Positions 51,337 to 63,178 of a DNA stretch of 64,000 nucleotides are shown here, piece by piece (the first letter of the stretch is position 1; each line of letters starts with the position of its first letter). The notes under the pieces are model-generated. The model ran no database searches. It was not told the origin of the DNA and saw only the letters and a list, made by a program, of their open reading frames with translations. The translations under genes and the position numbers were made by a program. This stretch comes from Arhodomonas aquaeolei DSM 8974 (GTDB lineage: Bacteria > Pseudomonadota > Gammaproteobacteria > Nitrococcales > Nitrococcaceae): NCBI RefSeq assembly GCF_000374645.1, contig NZ_KB894801.1:124001-188000 (forward strand), in the 5' to 3' direction.

Positions 51337-52050
51337 TCACACCGGGGCGCAGTAGAGGGCGTTCAGCCCGGAGTAGATCGGGACCGACGCCGTCCACACG
51401 CCCATCACCAGGATCGTCATGCCGAGCGCGAGCCGCACCCGCCCCCGGGCGAGCAGGCGGCCCGTCACCGCCGCCGCCGTACCGGTCAGGACCATCGCCG
51501 GCATCGTTCCCAGACCGAAGGCCACCATCACCGCTGCCCCGTCCCCGGCGCCGCCCGCCAGCGCCGCGGCCACGAGCATGCCGTAGACCAGGCCGCAGGG
51601 CAGCCAGCCCCACAGCCCGCCGAGCAGCAACGCCTTGCCGGGGCTGCGTACCGGCATGAGCCCGCGGGCCAGCGGCGCGATACGGGCCCACACCCGCATG
51701 CCGCTGCGCTCCAGGGGGGCAAGCAGCCGCCAGTTGAAGGCGACCTGAACGCCGATTGCGGCCATGACCAGCCCCATCGCGACTCGCAGGCCGCTGGTCC
51801 ATGCGCCGAGGCTGATCAGGCTCGCCAGCCACAGGCCAACACCGCCGGCAACGGCACCGGCCACGGCATAGCTGGTCACACGACCGGCGTTGTAGGCAAG
51901 CGCATACCCGAACAGCCGCCACGGTGTCCGCCGCTCCGGCGCCACCCCCATGCCGAGCGCGGAGGCGATGCCGCCGCACATGCCCAGGCAGTGGGTGCTG
52001 CCCACCAGGCCGGCGAGCAACGCCCCGATAAGGGTGATGTCCCCCATCAT
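51337..52050 (-). CDS. SafE/TauE-like membrane protein of the cco locus (COG2836)
   Basis: 237-residue membrane protein with about six helices and a conserved T-H-C-L-G-M-C-G-G motif near residue 20 whose two cysteines and histidine may bind copper. Proteins of this family commonly end ccoGHIS clusters and are annotated sulfite-exporter TauE/SafE, though a part in copper transfer for the oxidase is more likely. It overlaps ccoS by 4 bases. Its stop codon abuts that of the convergent stress gene in TGATCA. Confidence 0.87.
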   Translation of the reverse strand: MMGDITLIGALLAGLVGSTHCLGMCGGIASALGMGVAPERRTPWRLFGYALAYNAGRVTSYAVAGAVAGGVGLWLASLISLGAWTSGLRVAMGLVMAAIGVQVAFNWRLLAPLERSGMRVWARIAPLARGLMPVRSPGKALLLGGLWGWLPCGLVYGMLVAAALAGGAGDGAAVMVAFGLGTMPAMVLTGTAAAVTGRLLARGRVRLALGMTILVMGVWTASVPIYSGLNALYCAPV

Positions 52051-52298
52051 TGGCCGCGGTCCTCATCGTCGGCGTCTTCATCTGCCCCCGGATCCGCGTT
52101 GGTACGCTCCTGACCGGTCGTTGCCTCGCCTCCCTCCTCCGGCGGTGTCTTCGACGGGCCTTCGTCGTCCATGAGGATCCGATAGGCCGGGCTGTCCAGG
52201 TCGTCGAACTGACCGTTGCCCACGGCCCAGAAGAACGCTCCGACAAAGACCACCAGGAGCATGAGGGCCAGCGGGATGAGGACGTAAAGAATCGTCAT
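52047..52298 (-). CDS. ccoS: Cytochrome cbb3 oxidase assembly protein CcoS
   Basis: 83-residue protein with one N-terminal membrane helix (M-T-I-L-Y-V-L-I-P-L-A-L, about 1-25), the family motif F-F-W-A-V-x-N-G-Q-F-D-D-L-D-S-P-A-Y-R-I-L near 26-46 and an acidic tail. CcoS is needed for cofactor insertion into cbb3 oxidase. ATG at 52298 has GGAGG 5 bases upstream. Confidence 0.93.
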   Translation of the reverse strand: MTILYVLIPLALMLLVVFVGAFFWAVGNGQFDDLDSPAYRILMDDEGPSKTPPEEGGEATTGQERTNADPGADEDADDEDRGQ

Positions 52299-52317
52299 GG
52301 CAGCCTCCGGAAAACGA

Positions 52318-54747
52318 TCAGGGCGTCGCGGTGGGTATCGCCGCCGGGTCATGCCCGTCGGGCCCGAACCGGGGGGCGCGCCAGCGGTTCGCGCGCAGGG
52401 CGTTGCCCACCACCACCAGCGAACTCAGCGACATGCCGACGGCGGCCATCCACGGCGTGAGCATGCCCGTCGCCGCCAGCGGGAGCGCGGTGAGGTTGTA
52501 CAGTGCCGCCCAGATCAGATTCTCCCGGATGATCCGGACCGCACGTCGGGCGCCGTCGGCGGCTTCCACCAGCGCGGAGAGATCATCCCGCATCAGGACC
52601 ATGTCCGCGCTGTTGCGCGCTAGCGCGCTGCCCCGGCCCATCGCAACGGAGACATCCGCCCCGGCAAGGACCGGGGCGTCATTGATGCCGTCGCCCACCA
52701 TCACAACGCGTTCCCCCGCGCTCTGGGCCTCGCACATGCGCGCGAGCTTATCCTCCGGACGCATGCGCGCCCGCCAGTCGCCGACACCGACCGCGGCGGC
52801 CACCTCGGCCACGGCCGCGGGATCATCGCCGCTGGCGATCTCCACCGTCAGCCCCCGTGCCTGCAGTGCCTGTATAGCGGGGACCGCCTCGGGGCGGAGC
52901 TGGTCGGCCAGCTCGAAGGTCGCCAGCCAGCCGTCGCCGTCGGCGAGGACAATCCCGCCCGCCGGCGCCGTCGTGCCCTCCGGCAGCGCCCACCCCGGCC
53001 GGCCGAGACGCACCGCCCGGCCATCGACGTTGCCCGCAAGCCCTGCGCCCGGCTCTACCGTGACCTCCCCCGCCCGGGGCAGATGTTCGCCGGGCGGGAA
53101 CGCCCCGGCGATCGGGTGCTCGGAGTGTGCCTCGAGCGCGGCCGCCAAGGCATAGGCCTCGTCCCGGCCGATACGCCCTGCGACCCGGATGCGCCGGATA
53201 CCCGGGGTGCCGGTGGTCAGCGTGCCGGTCTTGTCGAGGATCAGCCGCGAGGCACGGGCCAGCCCTTCGACCGCGTCCGTGCGGGTCACGAGTAGTCCTC
53301 GCCGCGCGAGCGCGCTGGTCGACGCAACCAGCGCCGTGGGCGTCGCCAGCGACAGCGCGCAGGGACAGGTCGCGACCAGCACTGCCAGCGTGATCTCAAA
53401 GGCCGCGCCCGGCTCCAGCCACCACCATACGCCGGCGATGACCGCCGTGCCGGCCAGCACGGCCGAGACGAACCACCCCGCGACCCGGTCGGCCACCCTC
53501 GCCAGTCTCGGGCGCCGGGTCTGTGCGCGCTCGAGCAGGCCCACGATGGCGGAAACGAGGGTTTGGCGCCCGATCCGCTCGACACGGATGTCGAGCACGC
53601 CGCCGGTATTGCCGCTACCGGCGAGGACCGCGTCGCCCTCGCCCCGCGGCACCGGCTCGAATTCGCCGGTGATGAGGGACTCGTCCACCGCACTGCGCCC
53701 GGCGACGACCGTGCCGTCCGCGGGGACGGTATCCCCGGGCCGGATCCGGACTCGGTCCCCGGGCTGGAGCTCGCGCAGGGCCACGCGCTCCGGGCGCTCC
53801 CCGGCCAGGCGCAACGCCGTGGTCGGCAGGGTCTGGGCCAGGGACTCGGTGGTCTGGCCGGCCCGGTGGCGCGCCACCATCTCCAGCGCCCGGGCGACCG
53901 TGAGGAAGAACACGAACATGGTCGCGGAGTCGAAGTAGACCTCGCCACCGGCGACCAGGGTGTTCCACACGCTGGCGGCGAAGGCGCCGCCCACGGCCAG
54001 CGCCACCGGCACGTCCATGCCGGGACGCCCGCTGCGCACGTCGCGCCAGGCACCGCGGAAGAACGGCGCGCCGGCGTAGATGACCACGGGGGTCGCCACG
54101 AGGAGGCTGACGAGGCGCAGAAAGGTCGCGATCTGGGGATCCATGTCGTTGTGGATCGCCCCGGCGTACAGGCCCACCGCGTACATCATGACCTGCATCA
54201 TGCCGAGCCCGGCAACCGCGAGCCGCCGCAACATCGCCCGGCGCTCGCGGATGATGCCGGGAACGGCCTCGCCCGCCTCCAGCGGGTGTGCCCGATAGCC
54301 AATACCGGCGAGCCGCCGCAGCAGCGTGCTCAGGGGCGTCGTCGCGGTATCCCAGCCCAGCAGCAGGCGGCCGGTGGCGGGATTGACCTGCACGGTCTCC
54401 ACGCCGGGCTCGCGTTCCAGCACCCGCTCGATGAGCCAGGCACAGGCCGCGCAGGTGATCCCCTCCAGCACGAACACCGCCTCACGGGCGTGTTCGCCGA
54501 CGGACCGGCTGACCTCGTCGAGCAGTGCCTGGCGGTCGTAGGCGGTCCACTCGTCCGCCTCCGGCTCCGGTCGGCTGGACGGTGCCGTGCGATAGCGGTA
54601 GAAATCGCTCAGGCCGCTACCGGCGATCAGGCTGGCGACGGCCTCGCAGCCGGCACAGCAGACCGGGCGGTCCTCGCCGTCGACCCGGACCACACGGCGT
54701 TCCCCGGGCGGTACCGGGTCGCCGCAGTGGAAGCAACGTTCCGCCAT
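52318..54747 (-). CDS. ccoI: Copper-exporting P-type ATPase CcoI (FixI)
   Basis: 809-residue P1B-type ATPase that delivers copper to the periplasm for the oxidase. The N-terminus has a Cys-rich ATPase metal-binding piece (C-F-H-C and C-C-A-G-C). A heavy-metal-associated domain with C-A-A-C lies near 104. The translocation motif C-P-C is near 461, the phosphorylation motif D-K-T-G-T near 505, and G-D-G-I-N-D near 690. ATG at 54747 is chosen for fit to the family. It follows ccoH and precedes ccoS by 19 bases. Confidence 0.95.
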   Translation of the reverse strand: MAERCFHCGDPVPPGERRVVRVDGEDRPVCCAGCEAVASLIAGSGLSDFYRYRTAPSSRPEPEADEWTAYDRQALLDEVSRSVGEHAREAVFVLEGITCAACAWLIERVLEREPGVETVQVNPATGRLLLGWDTATTPLSTLLRRLAGIGYRAHPLEAGEAVPGIIRERRAMLRRLAVAGLGMMQVMMYAVGLYAGAIHNDMDPQIATFLRLVSLLVATPVVIYAGAPFFRGAWRDVRSGRPGMDVPVALAVGGAFAASVWNTLVAGGEVYFDSATMFVFFLTVARALEMVARHRAGQTTESLAQTLPTTALRLAGERPERVALRELQPGDRVRIRPGDTVPADGTVVAGRSAVDESLITGEFEPVPRGEGDAVLAGSGNTGGVLDIRVERIGRQTLVSAIVGLLERAQTRRPRLARVADRVAGWFVSAVLAGTAVIAGVWWWLEPGAAFEITLAVLVATCPCALSLATPTALVASTSALARRGLLVTRTDAVEGLARASRLILDKTGTLTTGTPGIRRIRVAGRIGRDEAYALAAALEAHSEHPIAGAFPPGEHLPRAGEVTVEPGAGLAGNVDGRAVRLGRPGWALPEGTTAPAGGIVLADGDGWLATFELADQLRPEAVPAIQALQARGLTVEIASGDDPAAVAEVAAAVGVGDWRARMRPEDKLARMCEAQSAGERVVMVGDGINDAPVLAGADVSVAMGRGSALARNSADMVLMRDDLSALVEAADGARRAVRIIRENLIWAALYNLTALPLAATGMLTPWMAAVGMSLSSLVVVGNALRANRWRAPRFGPDGHDPAAIPTATP

Positions 54748-54757
54748 CGCCGGCCGG

Positions 54758-55285
54758 TCAGGCCCCGCTGTCGTCGCCCGATCCCCCGAGCCGCAGGTCC
54801 CCGGCCTGCGCCTTGAGCTCGCCGCGCAGGAGCCACGAGCCGTCCCCCGGTTCCACCAGCACGTATCGGCGACTGTCGATCGCCACGCCGGTGCCGCCAC
54901 GGTACAGCCCGGTGCCATCACGCTTGAGCTCGACCCCGAGGTCCTGCTTGGCGGCAGTCGGGTGCACCAGCTTCATCCTGAGGATATCCGGCGGGTTGTC
55001 GATGCCGTCGAGCGCGAGCGTGACGCGGCCGCTGTCACGCTGGACGTGCACCCGCACGCCCACACCGAGCTCGTCCGCCCGGTCGTAGGCGGCACGCTCC
55101 TGGATGTAGGTCTTGCCCAGCTGGGAGTAGTCGTCCACGACCAGATCGACCATGTTGTCATTGAGCACCACGACGGTGCCGATCATGGCGATCACCCATA
55201 TGCCCAGCGGGGCGAAAACGAACCAGCACCAGAACTGCCGGTACCAGGGCTTTTGATCTTCAGTGCTCATTACACTCGCGCTCAT
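54758..55285 (-). CDS. ccoH: Cytochrome oxidase maturation protein CcoH (FixH)
   Basis: 175-residue protein with a short cytoplasmic N-terminus containing P-W-Y-R-Q-F-W-x-W-F-V, one membrane helix (about 20-42) and a periplasmic beta-rich domain. The family pattern V-D-D-Y-x-x-x-G-K-x-Y near 50 is clear. CcoH interacts with CcoN during assembly. The ATG at 55285 is followed by another ATG at 55270; both fit. Confidence 0.88.
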   Translation of the reverse strand: MSASVMSTEDQKPWYRQFWCWFVFAPLGIWVIAMIGTVVVLNDNMVDLVVDDYSQLGKTYIQERAAYDRADELGVGVRVHVQRDSGRVTLALDGIDNPPDILRMKLVHPTAAKQDLGVELKRDGTGLYRGGTGVAIDSRRYVLVEPGDGSWLLRGELKAQAGDLRLGGSGDDSGA

Positions 55286-55288
55286 CGC

Positions 55289-56719
55289 TCATTCACCACG
55301 GTTGTAGGGACCGTGGAAACGGGTGGTCTCCGTGACAGACAGGGTGCCGTCCTCGGAAGTGACCGTCAGCTCCACGTCGGTACCCGGCGTACTCATTACC
55401 GACGCATCCACTCTCAGACGCACCGGCACGTTCCGTTGTTCCCCGGCGGCGATCTCGATACGGTCCGGATCGGTATCGGCCGTGATCCCGGGCAGCCCCG
55501 AGGCGGACACCGTATAGGTGTGCGCCTGCTGGGACATGTTCAGCACCTTGACGTCGTAGACGTTCTCGATGCGGCCGCCGTCGAGCTCGCGGTACAGGGC
55601 GTTACGGTCGGGCAGGATATCCACGCGCATGGGCGTGCGCATCGCCACGGCCGTGAGCGTGCCCGCGATCAGCGCGAGCAGCAGCACCGAGTAGACGATC
55701 ACCCGGGGACGGAAGATACGCGTCGGCTTGCCCTCGAGCGTGTTCTCGGTCGTATACCGGATCAATCCGCGAGGATAACCCATCTTGTCCATGACCTGAT
55801 CGCAGGCGTCGATGCAGGCCCCACAGGCGATGCACTCGTACTGCAGGCCGTCACGGATGTCGATCCCGGTGGGACAGACCTGCACGCACATCGTGCAGTC
55901 GATGCAGTCACCGAGGCCGAGCTCGGCCGGATCGGCGCCGCGCTTGCGGGGGCCGCGCGGCTCGCCCCGCGCCTCGTCGTAGGAGATGATGAGCGTGTCC
56001 CGGTCGAACATCGCGCTCTGGAAGCGCGCGTACGGACACATGTACAGGCAGACGTTCTCCCGCATGAACCCGGCGTTGCCCCAGGTGGCGAAGCCGTAGA
56101 AGATCAGCCAGAACGTCTCCCACGGACCGAGATCCAGGGTGAAGACGCGCACACCGAGCTCGCGTATCGGCGTGAAGAAGCCCACGAAGGTGAACCCGGT
56201 CCACGCGGCGAGCAGGATCCAGATGCCGTGTTTGGAGAACTTGCGGACGATCTTCTCGCGGTTCCACGGTCCGCGGTCGAGCTTCATCCGCCTCGGGCGG
56301 TCGCCCTCCGTCCAGTGCTCGATCCAGAGGAATACCTCCGTCCACACCGTCTGGGGACAGGCGTAGCCGCACCAGACACGTCCGGCGAGGGCGGTGACGA
56401 AGAACAGGCTGAGCGCGCAGATAATCAGCAGCAGCGCCAGGAAAAAGAAGTCCTGGGGCCAGAAGGTCAGTCCGAAGATGTGGAACTCGCGGGCGGGGAG
56501 ATCCAGCAGGATCGCCTGCCGCCCGTTCCAGGTCACCCAGGGGAGGAGGTAGTACAGGCCCAGCAGGGCGAACACCGCGAACTTGCGCAGGCTCTGGAAA
56601 CGCCCCTTGATCCCGCGGGGATAGACCTTCTCCCGCGACTGGTACATCGAGACTGCCTCGGATGCCGCGGCATCCTCCTGCTTAGCGCCGCGTCCCCGGC
56701 GGTTGCGCGCCTCACTCAT
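55289..56719 (-). CDS. ccoG: Polyferredoxin CcoG (FixG/RdxA)
   Basis: 476-residue membrane protein with several helices and two 4Fe-4S centres: C-I-D-C-T-M-C-V-Q-V-C-P (about 270) and C-I-A-C-G-A-C-I-D-A-C-D (about 295). A conserved C-G-Y-A-C-P-Q-T motif lies in the membrane part near 118 and may bind copper; CcoG is a copper reductase for oxidase assembly. The C-terminal portion is periplasmic and beta-rich. It is preceded by the 96-aa protein. Confidence 0.95.
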   Translation of the reverse strand: MSEARNRRGRGAKQEDAAASEAVSMYQSREKVYPRGIKGRFQSLRKFAVFALLGLYYLLPWVTWNGRQAILLDLPAREFHIFGLTFWPQDFFFLALLLIICALSLFFVTALAGRVWCGYACPQTVWTEVFLWIEHWTEGDRPRRMKLDRGPWNREKIVRKFSKHGIWILLAAWTGFTFVGFFTPIRELGVRVFTLDLGPWETFWLIFYGFATWGNAGFMRENVCLYMCPYARFQSAMFDRDTLIISYDEARGEPRGPRKRGADPAELGLGDCIDCTMCVQVCPTGIDIRDGLQYECIACGACIDACDQVMDKMGYPRGLIRYTTENTLEGKPTRIFRPRVIVYSVLLLALIAGTLTAVAMRTPMRVDILPDRNALYRELDGGRIENVYDVKVLNMSQQAHTYTVSASGLPGITADTDPDRIEIAAGEQRNVPVRLRVDASVMSTPGTDVELTVTSEDGTLSVTETTRFHGPYNRGE

Positions 56720-56731
56720 TCATCTGCCTCT

Positions 56732-57022
56732 CTAACTCTCCTTTCGACCCGCTTTCGCGGCCCTACGGGCGGGACTGAACAGCCATACGCTCAGCGCGCT
56801 CGAGGCGGCACACACCGCCCAGAACATGAAAAAGCCGAGCGTGTAGCCCAGCTTCCGGCCGATCTCCCAGTCCGGCAGGGTCTCGTAGCGCAGCGTCTCC
56901 GGATCGACGTTGGCGAAAAAGACCATCGTGGCGACTCCGGCCGTCAGGAACGACGGCCAGAGTATGGCCCCGAGCCAGCGCAGGCGGCTGCTCGCCGCCT
57001 GCGTCGCCGACGCATCACTCAC
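56732..57022 (-). CDS. Uncharacterised two-helix membrane protein in the cco operon
   Basis: I do not recognise this 96-residue protein. It has a short Ser/Ala-rich N-terminus, a first hydrophobic helix (about 18-36), a polar loop with N-V-D-P-E-T-L-R-Y-E-T-L-P-D-W-E, a second hydrophobic stretch (about 55-82) and a basic C-terminus. The GTG start overlaps the ccoP stop by 8 bases, and ccoG starts 12 bases after its stop, so it is translated within the operon. It is not CcoH, CcoQ or CcoS, all of which are present. A helper in oxidase assembly is the simplest idea but is inference. Confidence 0.72.
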   Translation of the reverse strand: MSDASATQAASSRLRWLGAILWPSFLTAGVATMVFFANVDPETLRYETLPDWEIGRKLGYTLGFFMFWAVCAASSALSVWLFSPARRAAKAGRKES

Positions 57023-57932
57023 TGCTCGCGCTCCGCTGCCCGGCCTGGCCGGAGAGCTGGTAGACGTAGGCCGCCAGCACGTGGATCTGCTCGGGGGTGA
57101 GCAGCTCCTTCTGAGCCGGCATCTGGCCATTACGCCCGTTAAGGATGGTCTCCTTGATGGTCTCCAGCGAGCCACCGTAGCGCCAGGTGTCGTCCGTCAG
57201 GTTGAGCGCACCGATCTGGGGGTTGCCCTTGGCATCGGCCCCGTGGCAGGCAACGCACTGGGTCATGAACACGTCCTTGCCGCGATCGACGAGCTCCTGC
57301 GGCGCATTGCGGCCATTGAGGCTGTAGACGTACGCGGCCACGGCCTCGAGCTTGGACTGACCCAGGCTCGCACCGAGCGCCGGCATCACGCCGTTACGGC
57401 CGTTGGTGATCGTCTGCTTGAGCGTCTCGGGCTCACCGCCGTACTGCCAGGAAGCGTCCGCCAGGTTCGGGAAGCCCTTGGCGCCGCGTCCGTCCGAACC
57501 GTGGCACACGGAGCAGTTGTTGGCGAACAGCCGCCGACCCGTGTCCATGGCCTCCGGGTCATTGGCCAGCACCGGCACGGGCTTGGCCGCATAGGACTCG
57601 TACAGCGACGCGGTACGCTCGTGCATCTGCTTGACCTCCTGCTGGTAGGCCGAGTACTGGCTCCAGTTCAGGACGCCGTCGAACCGGCCCAGCCCCGGGT
57701 AAAGCACCAGGTAGATCAGGCCGAACACGATGGTGATGTAGAACAGCCACAGCCACCACCGCGGCATGGGCTGGTTGTACTCGCTCAGGTCACCGTCCCA
57801 GACGTGACCGGTGGTCTCGGTGGCACTCGCCTCGCCGGGGCGCGGCTTCGCCGTCCAGCGGATGAGCCAGTAGCACGCTGCGATGTTGCCCAGCGTCAAG
57901 ACGATGATGTACCAGTGCCAGAAGCTACTCAT
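57015..57932 (-). CDS. ccoP: cbb3 oxidase subunit III CcoP
   Basis: 305-residue diheme c-type cytochrome subunit of cbb3 oxidase. It has N-terminal membrane helices (about 7-25 and 58-78) and two c-heme sites, C-S-V-C-H near 140 and C-V-A-C-H near 226. Methionines in N-G-V-M-P and N-G-Q-M-P motifs lie downstream as axial ligands. The ccoP start overlaps the ccoQ stop by 4 bases. Confidence 0.96.
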   Translation of the reverse strand: MSSFWHWYIIVLTLGNIAACYWLIRWTAKPRPGEASATETTGHVWDGDLSEYNQPMPRWWLWLFYITIVFGLIYLVLYPGLGRFDGVLNWSQYSAYQQEVKQMHERTASLYESYAAKPVPVLANDPEAMDTGRRLFANNCSVCHGSDGRGAKGFPNLADASWQYGGEPETLKQTITNGRNGVMPALGASLGQSKLEAVAAYVYSLNGRNAPQELVDRGKDVFMTQCVACHGADAKGNPQIGALNLTDDTWRYGGSLETIKETILNGRNGQMPAQKELLTPEQIHVLAAYVYQLSGQAGQRSASSE

Positions 57933-58099
57933 TGCCCGTTCCTTCCCTTTTCCGCATCCCGCCGTTCGGCATCCAGGGGCAGCTGCGCGGCTTGATCGAA
58001 GTCTTTCTTGCGCCGCTTGCTGTAGGCCCAGATGACGATCCCGATGAACGCCGCCATCGACAGGGCGGTGATGATTCCACTCAGGGTTCCACTATCCAT
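57929..58099 (-). CDS. ccoQ: cbb3 oxidase subunit CcoQ
   Basis: 56-residue single-pass membrane protein between ccoO and ccoP. It has one helix (about 6-26: G-I-I-T-A-L-S-M-A-A-F-I-G-I-V-I-W-A-Y) followed by a basic stretch S-K-R-R-K-K-D-F-D-Q-A, which is the family pattern. It stabilises the complex. Confidence 0.92.
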   Translation of the reverse strand: MDSGTLSGIITALSMAAFIGIVIWAYSKRRKKDFDQAAQLPLDAERRDAEKGRNGQ

Positions 58100-58112
58100 T
58101 GCCGGCTCCCGA

Positions 58113-58718
58113 TCAGCGGCCGATCTCTGTCCCCATTCCCTGGAGGTAGGCGATGACTGCATCCATTTCCGTCTTGCCCTTCAGCTTGTCGGCCGCGTTG
58201 TCGAGCTGCGTCTCGGTGTAAGGCACCCCGAGGAGATTCTTCTGCTCGCGCATGCGGTGCACCACCGACTGCGGGTCCAGCTCGTTTTCGGCGAGCCACG
58301 GGAAGCCCGGCATGTTCGACTGCGGAACCACGTCACGCGGATTCATCAGGTGACGGTAATGCCACTCGTCGGAGTACTTGCCGCCGACGCGGGCAAGGTC
58401 CGGGCCGGTACGCTTGGAGCCCCACTGGAACGGGCGGTCATAGACGTACTCCCCCGCCACCGAGTAGTGACCGTAGCGCTCCGTCTCCGCACGGAAGGGC
58501 CGGATCTGCTGCGAGTGGCAGTTGTAGCAGCCCTCGCGGACATAGACGTCCCGCCCGGCGAACTCCAGAGCGGGATAGGGCTCGACGCCCTCGGCCGGCT
58601 CCGTGGTCTTCGCCTGGAACATCAGCGGGACGATCTCCACCAGGCCACCGATGCTGACCACCAGCAGGATCAGCATGGCCATCAGCCCGACGTTCTTCTC
58701 TACGACCTCATGTGACAT
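58113..58718 (-). CDS. ccoO: cbb3 oxidase subunit II CcoO
   Basis: 201-residue monoheme cytochrome c subunit. One N-terminal membrane helix (about 10-33) is followed by the heme motif [11 protein letters not shown] near 64 and later the conserved W-x-Y-R-H-L-M-N-P-R region with the ligand methionine. AAGGAG lies upstream of the ATG. Electrons pass from CcoP through CcoO to CcoN. Confidence 0.97.
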
Positions 58719-58730
58719 TCGCTGATCTCC

Positions 58731-60152
58731 TTAAGCGGTCGCTTCCGGGGCGGATTCGGTCGCCACGCGCTCCTGCGGGCGAATGGTCATCCACACGTTC
58801 CAGGCCATGATCAGCATGCCTGCGAGGAACAGGAAGCCGCCGAACATGCGCACCGCGTAGTACGGATAGGTAGCCTGCAGGGACTGCACGAAGCTGTAGG
58901 TCAGCGTGCCGTCCGGGTTGGTGGCCCGCCACATGAGGCCCTGCATCACGCCCGCGATCCACATCGAGGCGATGTAGAGGACCACGCCGATGGTCGCCAC
59001 CCAGAAGTGGGCACCGATGGCCTTGACACTGTACATCTGCTCCCGGCCCCACAGCTTGGGGATCAGCGCGTACATGGAACCGATGGTGATGAACGCCACC
59101 CACCCGAGCGCACCCGAGTGCACGTGACCGATGGTCCAGTCCGTGTAGTGGGACAGGGCGTTGACGGTCTTGATGGACATCATCGGGCCCTCGAACGTGG
59201 ACATACCGTAGAACGACAGGCTCACGATGAGGAAGCGGATGATCGGGTCGTCGCGCAGCTTATGCCAGGCACCGGAGAGCGTCATGATGCCGTTGATCAT
59301 GCCGCCCCACGAGGGCGCCAGCAGGATCAGCGAGAACACCATGCCCAGCGACTGCACCCACTCCGGCAGCGACGTCCAGTGGAGATGGTGGGGACCCGCC
59401 CACATGTACACCGAGATCAGTGCCCAGAAGTGCACCACGGAAAGGCGGTAGGAGTAGATCGGACGCCCGGCCTGCTTGGGGACGAAGTAGTACATCATCC
59501 CGAGGAAGCCGGCGGTGAGGAAGAAGCCGACCGCGTTATGGCCGTACCACCACTGCACCATCGCGTCGACGGCGCCGGAGTAGACCGGGTAGGACTTGGT
59601 CAGCGACACCGGGATCGCGAGGTTGTTCACCACGTGCAGCAGCGCGATGGTGATGATAAACGCACCGTAGAACCAGTTCGCCACGTAGATGTGCTTTTCG
59701 CGACGCTTCATGATCGTCCCGAAGAACACAACCGCGTAGCTGACCCACACCAGGGTGATCAGGATGTCGATGGGCCACTCGAGCTCGGCGTACTCCTTGC
59801 TCTGGGTGATGCCCAGCGGCAGCGTGATCGCCGCGGCGACGATGACCACCTGCCAGCCCCAGAACGTAAACGCCGTGAGCTTGTCAGAGAGCAGGCGGGT
59901 GCCGCAGGTTCGCTGGACCACGTAGTAGGAGGTCCCGATGAGGGCGCTGCCGCCGAAGGCGAAGATAACGGCGTTGGTATGCAGCGGGCGGAGGCGGCTG
60001 AATGTCAGCCACGGCACGTCGAAGTTGAGAGCGGGCCAGAGCAGCTGGGCGGCGATAAACACCCCCACCGCCATGCCCACGATCCCCCAGATGACAGTCG
60101 CCAGGGCGAACTGGCGCACTACCTTGTCGTTGTAGGCGGGTGTCGCGTCCAT
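58731..60152 (-). CDS. ccoN: cbb3 oxidase catalytic subunit I CcoN
   Basis: 473-residue heme-copper oxidase subunit with about twelve membrane helices. It contains L-R-P-L-H-T-N-A near 55 with a heme histidine, the A-G-P-H-H-L-H copper-site region near 255, the cross-linked-tyrosine region P-S-W-G-G near 280, and the W-T-I-G-H-V-H-S-G motif near 342 with the high- and low-spin heme histidines. cbb3 enzymes have high oxygen affinity. It is the first gene of the cco unit. Its Shine-Dalgarno sequence is weak. Confidence 0.97.
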
Positions 60153-60521
60153 AGGTCGGTTTCCATCTCAGATATGGATTGCGGGTTAACCGAGTGCAGC
60201 ACCGGCGGATACCGGCGACGGCGATTCTCCTTTTCGGTCCACTCGCCATTGCCCGACGAGCAAACCTGACCGCGGGGTCATTATCCTTGAGGCGGTATTG
60301 AAGGTCTTGACCTGCATCAATTCAGTGCGGCCATGCCGGACACCGACCCCCGCCACCCGGGCGTGCCGCTCGCGATTCTACTGTGCCCAATCCATATATG
60401 GACAATATCGCGGCGTCATGCCGCCCGCGATGGCGTGCTCATCCGGTACAATCGGATGTCGGGCGCACGGCGGCGCCGATACGGCCGGCGCGCCCGCCGC
60501 GCACTGAATTATGGAGGATCC
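60153..60521. other. Divergent ccoN-LOG intergenic region
   Basis: 369 bases. It holds the Fnr/Anr-type promoter for ccoN. On the LOG side there is a palindrome CCATATATGG at about 60392-60401 and TACAAT at 60447-60452, a possible -10 without a good -35. No RNA gene or small protein was recognised. Confidence 0.5.
60280..60320 (-). promoter_or_regulatory. Fnr/Anr-dependent class II promoter of the cco operon
   Basis: TTGACCTGCATCAA (60307-60320) matches the Fnr consensus TTGAT-N4-ATCAA in nine of ten positions. On the minus strand a -10 GATAAT (60285-60280) follows, placing transcription near 60273 and the box centre about 41 bases upstream, the textbook class II spacing. The transcript would have a leader of about 120 bases before ccoN. 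This predicts induction at low oxygen, as expected of cbb3 oxidase. Confidence 0.85.
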
Positions 60522-61103
60522 ATGCAACGCATTTGCATCTATTGCGGCTCCGCCGCCGGGCGCGACCCGCGCTACCGTGAGGCCGCGAGCGCCTTCGGCG
60601 CCGCCGTGGCCGCCCGGGGGCTCGGCGTCGTCTACGGCGGCGGCGCGACAGGGATGATGGGCGCCGTCGCCGACGCCGCTCTCGCCGAGGGCGGCGAAGT
60701 CGTCGGCGTCATTCCCGAAACCCTGCTCGCCCGCGAAGTCGGCCACCGGGAGGTCACGCGGCTGGAGGTCGTGACCTCCATGCACGAGCGCAAGGCGCGC
60801 ATGGCCGAGCTCGCCGACGGATTCATCGCCCTGCCCGGGGGGCTGGGTACCTTCGAGGAGATCTTCGAGATCCTCACCTGGGCGCAGCTCGGCTTCCATC
60901 GCAAGCCCTGCGGACTGATCAACATGGCAGGCTACTACGACCATCTGGTGACCTTCCTGGACCATGCCGTGGACACCGGCTTCCTGCGCCGGAGCAACCG
61001 GGACATGCTGCTCGTGGACGACGACGGCGAGCGGCTGCTCGAGCGTTTCGCCGAATACCGCGCGCCCCGCGTGACCCAGTGGATCGACAAGAGCAGTACA
61101 TAG
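60522..61103 (+). CDS. LOG-family protein (nucleoside 5'-monophosphate phosphoribohydrolase)
   Basis: 193-residue Rossmann-fold protein. It begins I-C-I-Y-C-G-S-A-A-G, has G-G-G-A-T-G-M-M-G near 40, and the signature L-P-G-G-L-G-T-F-E-E near 105. LOG-family proteins cleave cytokinin-type or ordinary nucleoside monophosphates to base and ribose phosphate; bacterial members such as PpnN-like or YgdH-like proteins act in nucleotide metabolism. GGAGG lies 5 bases before ATG 60522. It overlaps tmcA by 25 bases. Confidence 0.9.
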   Translation: MQRICIYCGSAAGRDPRYREAASAFGAAVAARGLGVVYGGGATGMMGAVADAALAEGGEVVGVIPETLLAREVGHREVTRLEVVTSMHERKARMAELADGFIALPGGLGTFEEIFEILTWAQLGFHRKPCGLINMAGYYDHLVTFLDHAVDTGFLRRSNRDMLLVDDDGERLLERFAEYRAPRVTQWIDKSST

Positions 61104-63178
61104 ACGGCGGCGTCGACGCCCTGCGGCGCTATCTCGCGGGTGTCCGGGATCCGGCGGGGCGTTATCGCCGGCTCGTAGTGTTACCGCCGCCCACGGACGC
61201 GGCCACGGCGATGGCGGCGGTAACCGCCCCGGCGGTACTGGTCAGCGATGCGCCGCCCGACGGCGAGGACGCGGTCCCGCTGCGCCGGGCCGCAACACTG
61301 CTCGGCAGCGAATACCGGGACGTCGTCGTCGATGTCCGTGCCGGTCTCGACGTCGACGCCCTGGCCGCCGTCGCCGGCGCCGTGATCGCCGGTGGCGTCA
61401 TGGTCGTAATCACCCCGGCGCTCGAGGACTGGCCGGGCTCTGCAGACCCGGCACTTGCAGGCCGCCTGTCCTGGCCGGCCGAACCCGCCGACGCCGCCGG
61501 TCATTTCCGCGACCGCCTGGTCCGCTGCCTGCGCGAAGACCCCCAGGTCGCGATATATCCCGCCGCCCCCGGGGCAGCATTGCCCCGGCCGGCCGCCGGC
61601 ACGGCGGGCGACGACCCCGCCTGTCTCACCAGCGATCAGGCCGCAGCGGTGGCCGCCGTCATTGCCGGCGCCGGTGGGGCGCCCCACCGTCCGTGCGTGC
61701 TCATCGCTGACCGGGGGCGGGGCAAGAGCACCGCACTCGGGATCGCGGCCCGTCGCCTGCTGGAGGCCGGTTCCGGGCCGGTGCTCGTAACCGCGCCGCG
61801 CCGGCGTGCCGCCGAGGCGCTGATCGCCGCCGCCACGGTGGACGGCTGCCCGGGGCCGCGTTACCTCCCGCCGGACCAGCTCATCCGCGAGCCCCGCCCC
61901 GCCGGGATGCTCCTCGTCGACGAGGCCGCGGGCCTGCCGGCCCCCATGCTCGATGGGCTGTTGGCGCGTTATCCGCGCATCGCATTCGCGACCACCGTGC
62001 ACGGCTACGAGGGTACCGGTGCAGGCTTTCGCGTGCGCTTTCTCGCCTCCCTCGACCGGCGTACACCGCAATGGCAGGAACACCGCCTGACCCAGCCCGT
62101 GCGCTGGGCGGACGGCGACCCCCTGGAGGCACTGCTCTTCCGCGCCCTGCTCCTGGACGCCGAGCCCGCTGATCTCGCCGCCATGCCCGCGACCGGCCAG
62201 ATCACCACCGGTCGTGAGCCGGCGGCCGCCCTGGCCCGGGATGAGAGCGCCCTGCGCGAGTTCTACGGACTACTGGTCGATGCCCACTACCAGACCCGCC
62301 CGGACGATCTGCGGCGCAGCCTCGAGGCCCCGGGTGCGGGGCTGTGGGCCGCGCGGGACGACGACGGCCACATCGTCGCCGCCGCGGTAACCCTGGACGA
62401 GGGCGAGCTCCCGCAGGCACTTCATACCGATATCCTCGCCGGGCGACGACGCCTGCAGGGTCACCTCCTGCCCCAGTCCCTCGCCGGCCACGGCGGCCTG
62501 GGCCAGGCACTCGCCCTGCGTCACCGGCGCGTGCACCGTATCGCCGTCCACCCGGCACTGCGCGGGCATGGCACTGGGCAGCGGCTGATGGCGACCATGG
62601 CGCGCGCTGCCCGGGAGGACGGGCTGGACACCCTGGGCACTGTCTTCGGCGCCACGCCCGCCCTGTTGCGCTTCTACCGGCGCTGCGGCCTGGCTGCCGT
62701 ACAGCTCGGTCATCGCCGGGACGCGGCCAGTGCCAGCCACGCGGCGTTCATGCTCCGCCCTCTCTCCGGCGACGGCGCCACCCTGACCGAGACCGCCCGC
62801 GCCCGCTTCGCCCGGGACATACCCTGGCGTCTTGCCGGGCCGCTCACGGCCCTCGATCCCGGCGTTGTGGCCGCCCTGATGCCGGGCCTCGACTTCGGCG
62901 CAGCGGACGATGCCGACGGCACCACGATCGCCGCGTTCTCCCACGGCCACCGCGGCCCGGACGACGCCGGTCCAGCGGTACAGCGCAAGCTGCTGCACCA
63001 TCTCGCCGCGTCCTCCGGCAATGCCGACGACGATGACGGCGCACAGCTGCTGGTGGCGCGTTTCCTCCAGCATCGGCCGTGGGACGAGCTGGCGGCCCGG
63101 GCCGGCGTGAGCGGCCGACGCGCCGTCATCGGGGCACTGCGCGCCGCCGCGGCGGTGCTGATCGCCGCGGATACCTGA
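61079..63178 (+). CDS. tmcA: tRNA(Met) cytidine acetyltransferase TmcA
   Basis: 699-residue enzyme that makes N4-acetylcytidine at the wobble base of elongator tRNA-Met, using ATP and acetyl-CoA. An N-terminal domain (about 1-190) is followed by a RecD-like ATPase with Walker A D-R-G-R-G-K-S near 210 and D-E-A-A-G near 280. A GNAT domain with R-G-H-G-T-G-Q-R near 497 and a C-terminal tail follow. The GTG at 61079 is the only reasonable start and lies within the end of the LOG gene. Length is normal. Confidence 0.92.
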   Translation: MDRQEQYIDGGVDALRRYLAGVRDPAGRYRRLVVLPPPTDAATAMAAVTAPAVLVSDAPPDGEDAVPLRRAATLLGSEYRDVVVDVRAGLDVDALAAVAGAVIAGGVMVVITPALEDWPGSADPALAGRLSWPAEPADAAGHFRDRLVRCLREDPQVAIYPAAPGAALPRPAAGTAGDDPACLTSDQAAAVAAVIAGAGGAPHRPCVLIADRGRGKSTALGIAARRLLEAGSGPVLVTAPRRRAAEALIAAATVDGCPGPRYLPPDQLIREPRPAGMLLVDEAAGLPAPMLDGLLARYPRIAFATTVHGYEGTGAGFRVRFLASLDRRTPQWQEHRLTQPVRWADGDPLEALLFRALLLDAEPADLAAMPATGQITTGREPAAALARDESALREFYGLLVDAHYQTRPDDLRRSLEAPGAGLWAARDDDGHIVAAAVTLDEGELPQALHTDILAGRRRLQGHLLPQSLAGHGGLGQALALRHRRVHRIAVHPALRGHGTGQRLMATMARAAREDGLDTLGTVFGATPALLRFYRRCGLAAVQLGHRRDAASASHAAFMLRPLSGDGATLTETARARFARDIPWRLAGPLTALDPGVVAALMPGLDFGAADDADGTTIAAFSHGHRGPDDAGPAVQRKLLHHLAASSGNADDDDGAQLLVARFLQHRPWDELAARAGVSGRRAVIGALRAAAAVLIAADT

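Follow-up and report, generated by a model that had tools for sequence, protein, structure and literature searches.

The cco cluster and the small gene of the window

The window, the whole stretch of 64,000 nucleotides analysed here, contains a cco cluster with the gene order ccoN, ccoO, ccoQ, ccoP, a small gene, ccoG, ccoH, a copper P-type ATPase gene in the place of ccoI, and ccoS (Table 1). Because each neighbour of the small gene matches its own family model, the standard cco genes are all present and separate, as a preliminary description of this DNA had stated. Read on the minus strand, the small gene extends from a GTG at 57022 to a stop at 56732 and encodes 96 aa. It overlaps ccoP by 8 bases (57015-57022), and a gap of 12 bases lies between its stop (56732) and the start of ccoG (56719), in agreement with the frame and the two junctions described earlier. 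The window holds two FNR-like matches, compared with 0.28 expected, and as many were found in 4 of 100 shuffles; the one upstream of ccoN is a possible promoter element of the operon, weak when taken alone.

Table 1. Features of the cco cluster in the window, with the evidence used to assign each of them.
Feature	Position	Strand	Evidence
ccoS	52047..52352	-	TIGR00847 E 3.6e-15; PF03597 (FixS)
CcoI-type copper P-type ATPase (start at 54747 chosen by us; full open frame begins at 54921)	52318..54747	-	TIGR01511 E 6.1e-146
ccoH (FixH)	54758..55285	-	PF05751 E 6.5e-26
ccoG (cupric reductase family; 476 aa), proposed partner	55289..56719	-	TIGR02745 E 2.6e-166; PF13746, PF11614
Small gene (96 aa, GTG start, stop included)	56732..57022	-	open frame, homologues, codon-position bias
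ccoP	57015..57932	-	TIGR00782 E 4.3e-84
ccoQ (FixQ)	57929..58162	-	PF05545 E 6.9e-10
ccoO	58113..58718	-	TIGR00781 E 1.7e-88
ccoN	58731..60152	-	TIGR00780 E 1.8e-235
FNR-like palindrome, 1 mismatch, upstream of ccoN	60307..60320		motif scan; weak

Two further genes were noted near the cluster. A DsbD_2-type membrane protein is encoded directly after ccoS (51340-52050); in Shewanella, a dsbD-annotated gene, SO2357, occupies the same spot, and Vibrio cholerae VC1435, which is similar to SO2357, is needed for cbb3 assembly (both from the available part of PMC3899249). A TmcA-like tRNA(Met) cytidine acetyltransferase, whose match falls below the model cut-off, is encoded at 61079-63175.

Among homologues of the small gene, codon position 3 holds 57% of the differences (2073 pairs, which are related rather than independent, with some loci held twice), and this concentration indicates that the frame is under purifying selection. 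A chance open frame is ruled out by the strong homologues, the constant placement between ccoP and ccoG, and the codon position 3 bias. In searches of Pfam, NCBIfam and PDB sequences, the small protein of the window gave no significant match (no Pfam match even at E ≤ 1), the best PDB sequence match being a designed chlorophyll protein at E 0.057, and a known family under another name was rejected on this basis. When all 28 homologues of alignment A2 were scanned against Pfam-A and NCBIfam, only scattered weak matches appeared, each common to at most two members and none reaching a curated cut-off. Both annotated copies that we met, in Variovorax and Xanthomonas sacchari records, are named 'hypothetical protein', and no name was found in the literature searched. 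The small protein is thus confirmed as real, conserved and without a name in the searches made.

The known small membrane proteins of the cco cluster, CcoH (FixH, PF05751), CcoS (PF03597) and CcoQ (PF05545), resemble it in kind, but each is separately present in the window and none matches it; specifically, the small protein has no PF05545 and no PF05751 match, and FixQ and FixH are encoded by genes of their own. CcoM, a one-helix protein of the Pseudomonas stutzeri cbb3 oxidase, is another small membrane protein linked to cbb3 that is easily overlooked. Identity with CcoM is ruled out by size and helix number, since CcoM is a 36-aa subunit (from the available part of PMC10433244) and the small protein has 96 aa and two predicted helices.

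The AlphaFold model, built from 46 sequences, predicts two long helices at residues 11-38 and 56-93 and a short intervening one at 41-48, at a mean pLDDT of 81.7. The loop has a mean net charge of -1.8 in alignment A2 (28 sequences) and -1.7 in alignment A3 (46 sequences), the flanks on either side being basic on average. Compared with the N-flank, the loop carries the more negative charge in 28/28 sequences of A2 and 46/46 of A3, and compared with the C-flank in 23/28 and 43/46, respectively; this pattern suggests that both termini are cytoplasmic. Conserved positions form two faces, W-P-x-F and G-Y-x-x-G-F-x-x-F-W. No Cys column exceeds 40% in the small protein, and the sole His column above that level reaches 43%; a metal-binding role was ruled out because conserved Cys or His is absent. 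Fold comparison (Foldseek best E 5.6; VIA-align best Z 5.2, both below a meaningful level for helical models) neither indicates nor rules out a shared fold with known structures. Taken together, the homologues, the codon bias, the two predicted helices and the acidic loop bear out the earlier description of a real two-helix membrane protein with no existing name.

Distribution of the small gene and its place relative to ccoG

Among 59 near genomes, the source genome included, 28 have a match to the small protein at E ≤ 7.6e-22 (two weak matches, L029 at E 0.005 and L030 at E 0.03, were left out), and in all 28 the small gene lies between ccoP and ccoG. In a class sample of 370 genomes, 99 gave a profile match at E ≤ 0.01 and 98 were accepted, the match in G125 (E 0.0073 over 35 residues) being counted as chance. 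Conservation therefore extends beyond close relatives, with 98 of 370 class genomes carrying the small protein; ccoG was found at E ≤ 1e-50 in 197 of the 370. All 32 matches in a phylum sample of 397 genomes, for which the out-of-class share is not shown, belong to the same class. The class Gammaproteobacteria as defined in GTDB takes in Burkholderiales, and in the Variovorax record the small gene lies between the FixH gene and hemN. A scan of the whole collection placed the small gene in the order ccoP-small gene-ccoG in 75 of 80 named loci (tblastn map), these being the best 80 of 576 confirmed places. The other five comprise three Stenotrophomonas loci without ccoNOP (L109, L117, L119), one locus that ends after the small gene (L105), and one in which the small gene was hidden by an overlap filter and later located (L069).

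The position of the small gene relative to ccoG was compared for 100 class matches, using the best 150 ccoG matches. On the same strand, 73 of the 100 lie directly before one of these ccoG genes, and 16 lie 359-769 bases after one, with ccoH intervening in the four of the 16 that were read. On inspection, five of the other 11 (G064, G371, G242, G319, G092) proved to lie between ccoP and ccoG, and the copies of G295 and G200 adjoin a detached CcoG. The copies of G192, G159 and G258 are not beside ccoG. That of G192 adjoins a Crp/Fnr-type regulator; the assemblies of G159 and G258 consist of about 500 contigs, and in G258 the small gene lies on the opposite strand from ccoNOP, where ccoP is followed by FixH without ccoG. 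The preliminary description had asked whether homologues always occur between ccoP and ccoG. This holds for the near genomes and for most of the class, but the copies after ccoG and the few elsewhere show that the placement is not universal. Within N-O-Q-P, the small gene was not seen in any of the loci mapped, and no fusion with ccoG occurs among the open frames searched. Additionally, the best 150 ccoG matches show a sharp break when ranked by score: the small gene is linked to 89 of the top 120 and to none of the next 30.

Two single loci were also noted. In L181 (3532-3948), an orphan small gene directly follows the gene of a Crp/Fnr-type regulator, and the 8 kb of this locus contain no cco match. 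In L184 (G092), ccoG is matched in two parts and ccoN is fragmented as well, with the small gene still between ccoP and ccoG; this would be either a decaying cluster or the result of assembly errors.

Co-occurrence with CcoG and the detached gene pairs

In the class sample, ccoG accompanies the small protein in all 98 convincing carriers, 97 at E ≤ 1e-50 and G200 at 1.5e-48. In family f16 (109 sampled genomes), the small protein and ccoG are found in one identical set of 79 genomes (ccoG threshold E ≤ 1e-10; 70/79 above the family cut-off), whereas ccoN occurs in 73, of which 70 are shared with the small protein, giving 12 mismatches. The nine of 79 carriers without a ccoN match are four genomes of genus g164, four of genus g499 (perhaps Xanthomonas, as a guess) and G941, whose ccoN may simply be absent from the assembly because its contig starts at ccoP. 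Conversely, three f16 genomes of two genera carry ccoN and lack both ccoG and the small protein; since the two genes are neighbours, a single deletion could account for the joint loss in each. Three clusters (L209-L211) contain N, O, Q, P and I and neither ccoG nor the small protein, and a short one-helix protein, judged by eye, lies between their ccoP and ccoI.

In genus g164 (Stenotrophomonas-like, probably Stenotrophomonas itself), all 61 species have the small protein and a ccoG or ccoG-like gene (4/61 over the family cut-off), and ccoN was found in only 4. Each of the 65 small-gene copies in the genus directly precedes a ccoG-like gene of the same strand, and every one of the four ccoN-bearing species has two such pairs, the first within the cco cluster and the second with a detached CcoG. 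S. rhizophila has the same detached arrangement. In Xanthomonas sacchari, the pair stands beside globin and hemN genes, and its CcoG-like gene is annotated '4Fe-4S dicluster domain-containing protein'. Thus the small protein was never found in a genome without ccoG, whether among the convincing carriers of the class sample, in f16 or in g164 (where most ccoG genes are below the cut-off), and it is kept with CcoG in the absence of a ccoN match in 57 of 61 g164 species and four g499 genomes.

These data bear on the proposal, made in the preliminary description, that the small protein is a factor of the cbb3 oxidase. As a subunit or assembly factor acting on CcoN, CcoO or CcoP, it would stand beside detached CcoG for some other reason. 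Most copies do lie in cco clusters, and 77 of the 79 convincing carriers checked also have ccoN at E ≤ 1e-30. The ccoN check covered 80 of the 99 listed genomes, G125 among them, and left out 19; 78 of the 80 were positive, G125 included, the exceptions being G200 and G295 of the same genus, and 73 of the 80 were over the cut-off. Against this stand the 57 species of g164 and the four genomes of another genus that keep the small protein with no ccoN match. The nine f16 carriers without a ccoN match (eight of them from these two genera, and G941 possibly reflecting a contig end) likewise show that its presence is not confined to genomes with ccoN; distance correlations with ccoN, ccoO and ccoP are also below that with ccoG. 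The proposal is partly supported: an accessory factor of the cco locus is still the best guess, but one that goes with CcoG rather than with the oxidase, since the small protein tracks CcoG and not ccoN. We consider an oxidase factor unlikely.

At 336-375 aa in the loci measured, detached CcoG is shorter than usual; two CxxxCP and two CxxCxxCxxxC motifs are kept in all five proteins checked, and the one scanned for it, from L061, has no FixG_C match. Species that lack cbb3 include some with smaller CcoG homologues in which the Ig domain is missing (from the available part of PMC7558416). The detached CcoG of L061 is alike to such YccM-type homologues in the missing FixG_C match, and differs from them in that its gene and the small gene stand in tandem. 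Separately, the TIGR02745 match of f16 CcoG (e.g. G448 C55 10107-11537) falls into two segments with a break near position 221, which points to an insert in the protein.

Each of the 17 detached loci examined (L061, L062, L194, L196, L198, L200, L202-L208, L212-L215) has a perfect FNR palindrome that separates the small gene from a divergent globin or hemN gene. A globin match was obtained in 15 of the 17 (none in L206; L062 outside the test) and a hemN match in 15 (none in L196 and L198). Such palindromes would also fit a small protein that is a free-standing member of a low-oxygen, FNR-type regulon, serving for example haem synthesis and sharing only its regulation with ccoG; hemN after the small gene in Variovorax and the Crp/Fnr gene adjoining the copy in G192 fit this as well. 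However, hemN was recognised in just 8 of the 80 named loci (within at most 6 kb on each side), three of them detached Stenotrophomonas loci, and the presence of the small protein is identical to that of ccoG across the 109 f16 genomes. We regard shared regulation alone as very improbable.

The CcoG tree groups the 17 detached copies used into a single clade (100/100), as does the small-protein tree (95/78), the latter having few columns and many open forks. Both trees were built from the same 68 loci, hand-picked out of 173 pairs. The detached branch of the CcoG tree is a long one (2.13), with nine rows of unusual letter composition. The most economical history would be that the pair was duplicated or transferred once as a unit and that the cco cluster was then lost in most species; retention without ccoN may reflect one duplication and long keeping rather than many events. 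In the 47 clusters complete for all seven genes, small-protein distances correlate best with those of ccoG (r 0.86; partial 0.49, next ccoI 0.22). When the partners are trimmed to 120 columns, ccoI ties with ccoG (0.828 and 0.826), and the rates therefore favour the ccoG-ccoI side of the operon rather than ccoG alone; as proof of a link to CcoG, the rate comparison is weakened by this length-matched control.

A putative membrane partner of CcoG

The small gene is real and conserved, belongs to the ccoG side of the operon and has been passed on together with CcoG also in genomes where ccoN is missing. On this comparative evidence, the small protein appears better placed with CcoG than with the cbb3 oxidase, and we propose, with a probability of roughly 0.6, that it serves CcoG as a non-catalytic membrane subunit or as an assembly partner. 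CcoG (RdxA, FixG; TIGR02745), for which reduction of Cu(II) to Cu(I) has been reported, is its neighbour and constant companion, a membrane protein from the same side of the operon, yet in the window CcoG is a 476-aa polyferredoxin, and the small protein is a 96-aa hairpin without Fe-S motifs. Since it has two helices and no conserved Cys or His and follows CcoG, we infer that a structural or assembly role is the simplest one. In such an arrangement, the small protein would be an inner-membrane hairpin of two helices, its termini on the cytoplasmic side and its short acidic loop facing the periplasm, and may pack on the membrane helices of CcoG through its W-P-x-F and G-Y-x-x-G-F-x-x-F-W faces. 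Such contact might stabilise CcoG, or position it to receive electrons or to pass on Cu(I), with a possible effect on copper reduction.

Counter to a CcoG partner, 100 of the 197 ccoG-bearing class genomes have no convincing match to the small protein, and the copies of G192, G159 and G258 lie away from ccoG. Three of the 100 (G065, G077, G374) do have a weakly matching copy between ccoP and ccoG. A comparison of 31 carriers with 23 non-carriers revealed no clear CcoG column or helix count separating the two groups. No replacement hairpin was seen by eye in 15 ccoP-ccoG gaps of non-carriers and 10 further stretches around ccoH-ccoI, L171 and one L178 stretch being partly masked; weakly matching copies of the small gene did emerge in L186, L189 and L190, and the poor match of L065 was confirmed.

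The available part of a review (PMC7558416) describes Rhodobacter capsulatus CcoG as a cupric reductase that contains two Fe-S clusters, and gives its physiological electron donor as unknown. The small protein might couple CcoG to a donor such as the quinone pool, as part of an electron path and not as a structural partner, and its second helix does contain conserved aromatic and Gly positions. Such a role is hard to reconcile with the absence of conserved Cys or His and with the roughly half of CcoG genomes that have no convincing copy, and we regard it as decidedly unlikely.

What appears to be new here, then, is an accessory protein to a known reductase family, CcoG. More tentatively, and with the odds somewhat against it, the CcoG of many Gammaproteobacteria could be a two-protein membrane complex with an unrecognised small subunit, which in Stenotrophomonas, and probably Xanthomonas, would have split from cbb3 and, under FNR-type regulation, would provide other haem-copper oxidases with copper when oxygen is low. 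In Bordetella pertussis, whose ccoN is a pseudogene, growth at low aeration is mildly impaired in a ccoG mutant and fails in a ccoG crpH double mutant (from the available part of PMC13038864).

If the small protein is a conserved partner of CcoG, this would change how CcoG is purified and assayed, and would account for one part of the path by which copper reaches the respiratory oxidases of Gammaproteobacteria. The small protein may be a missing part of the preparation of copper for respiration, and the oxidase-free pair of Stenotrophomonas offers a clean setting for what CcoG does alone.
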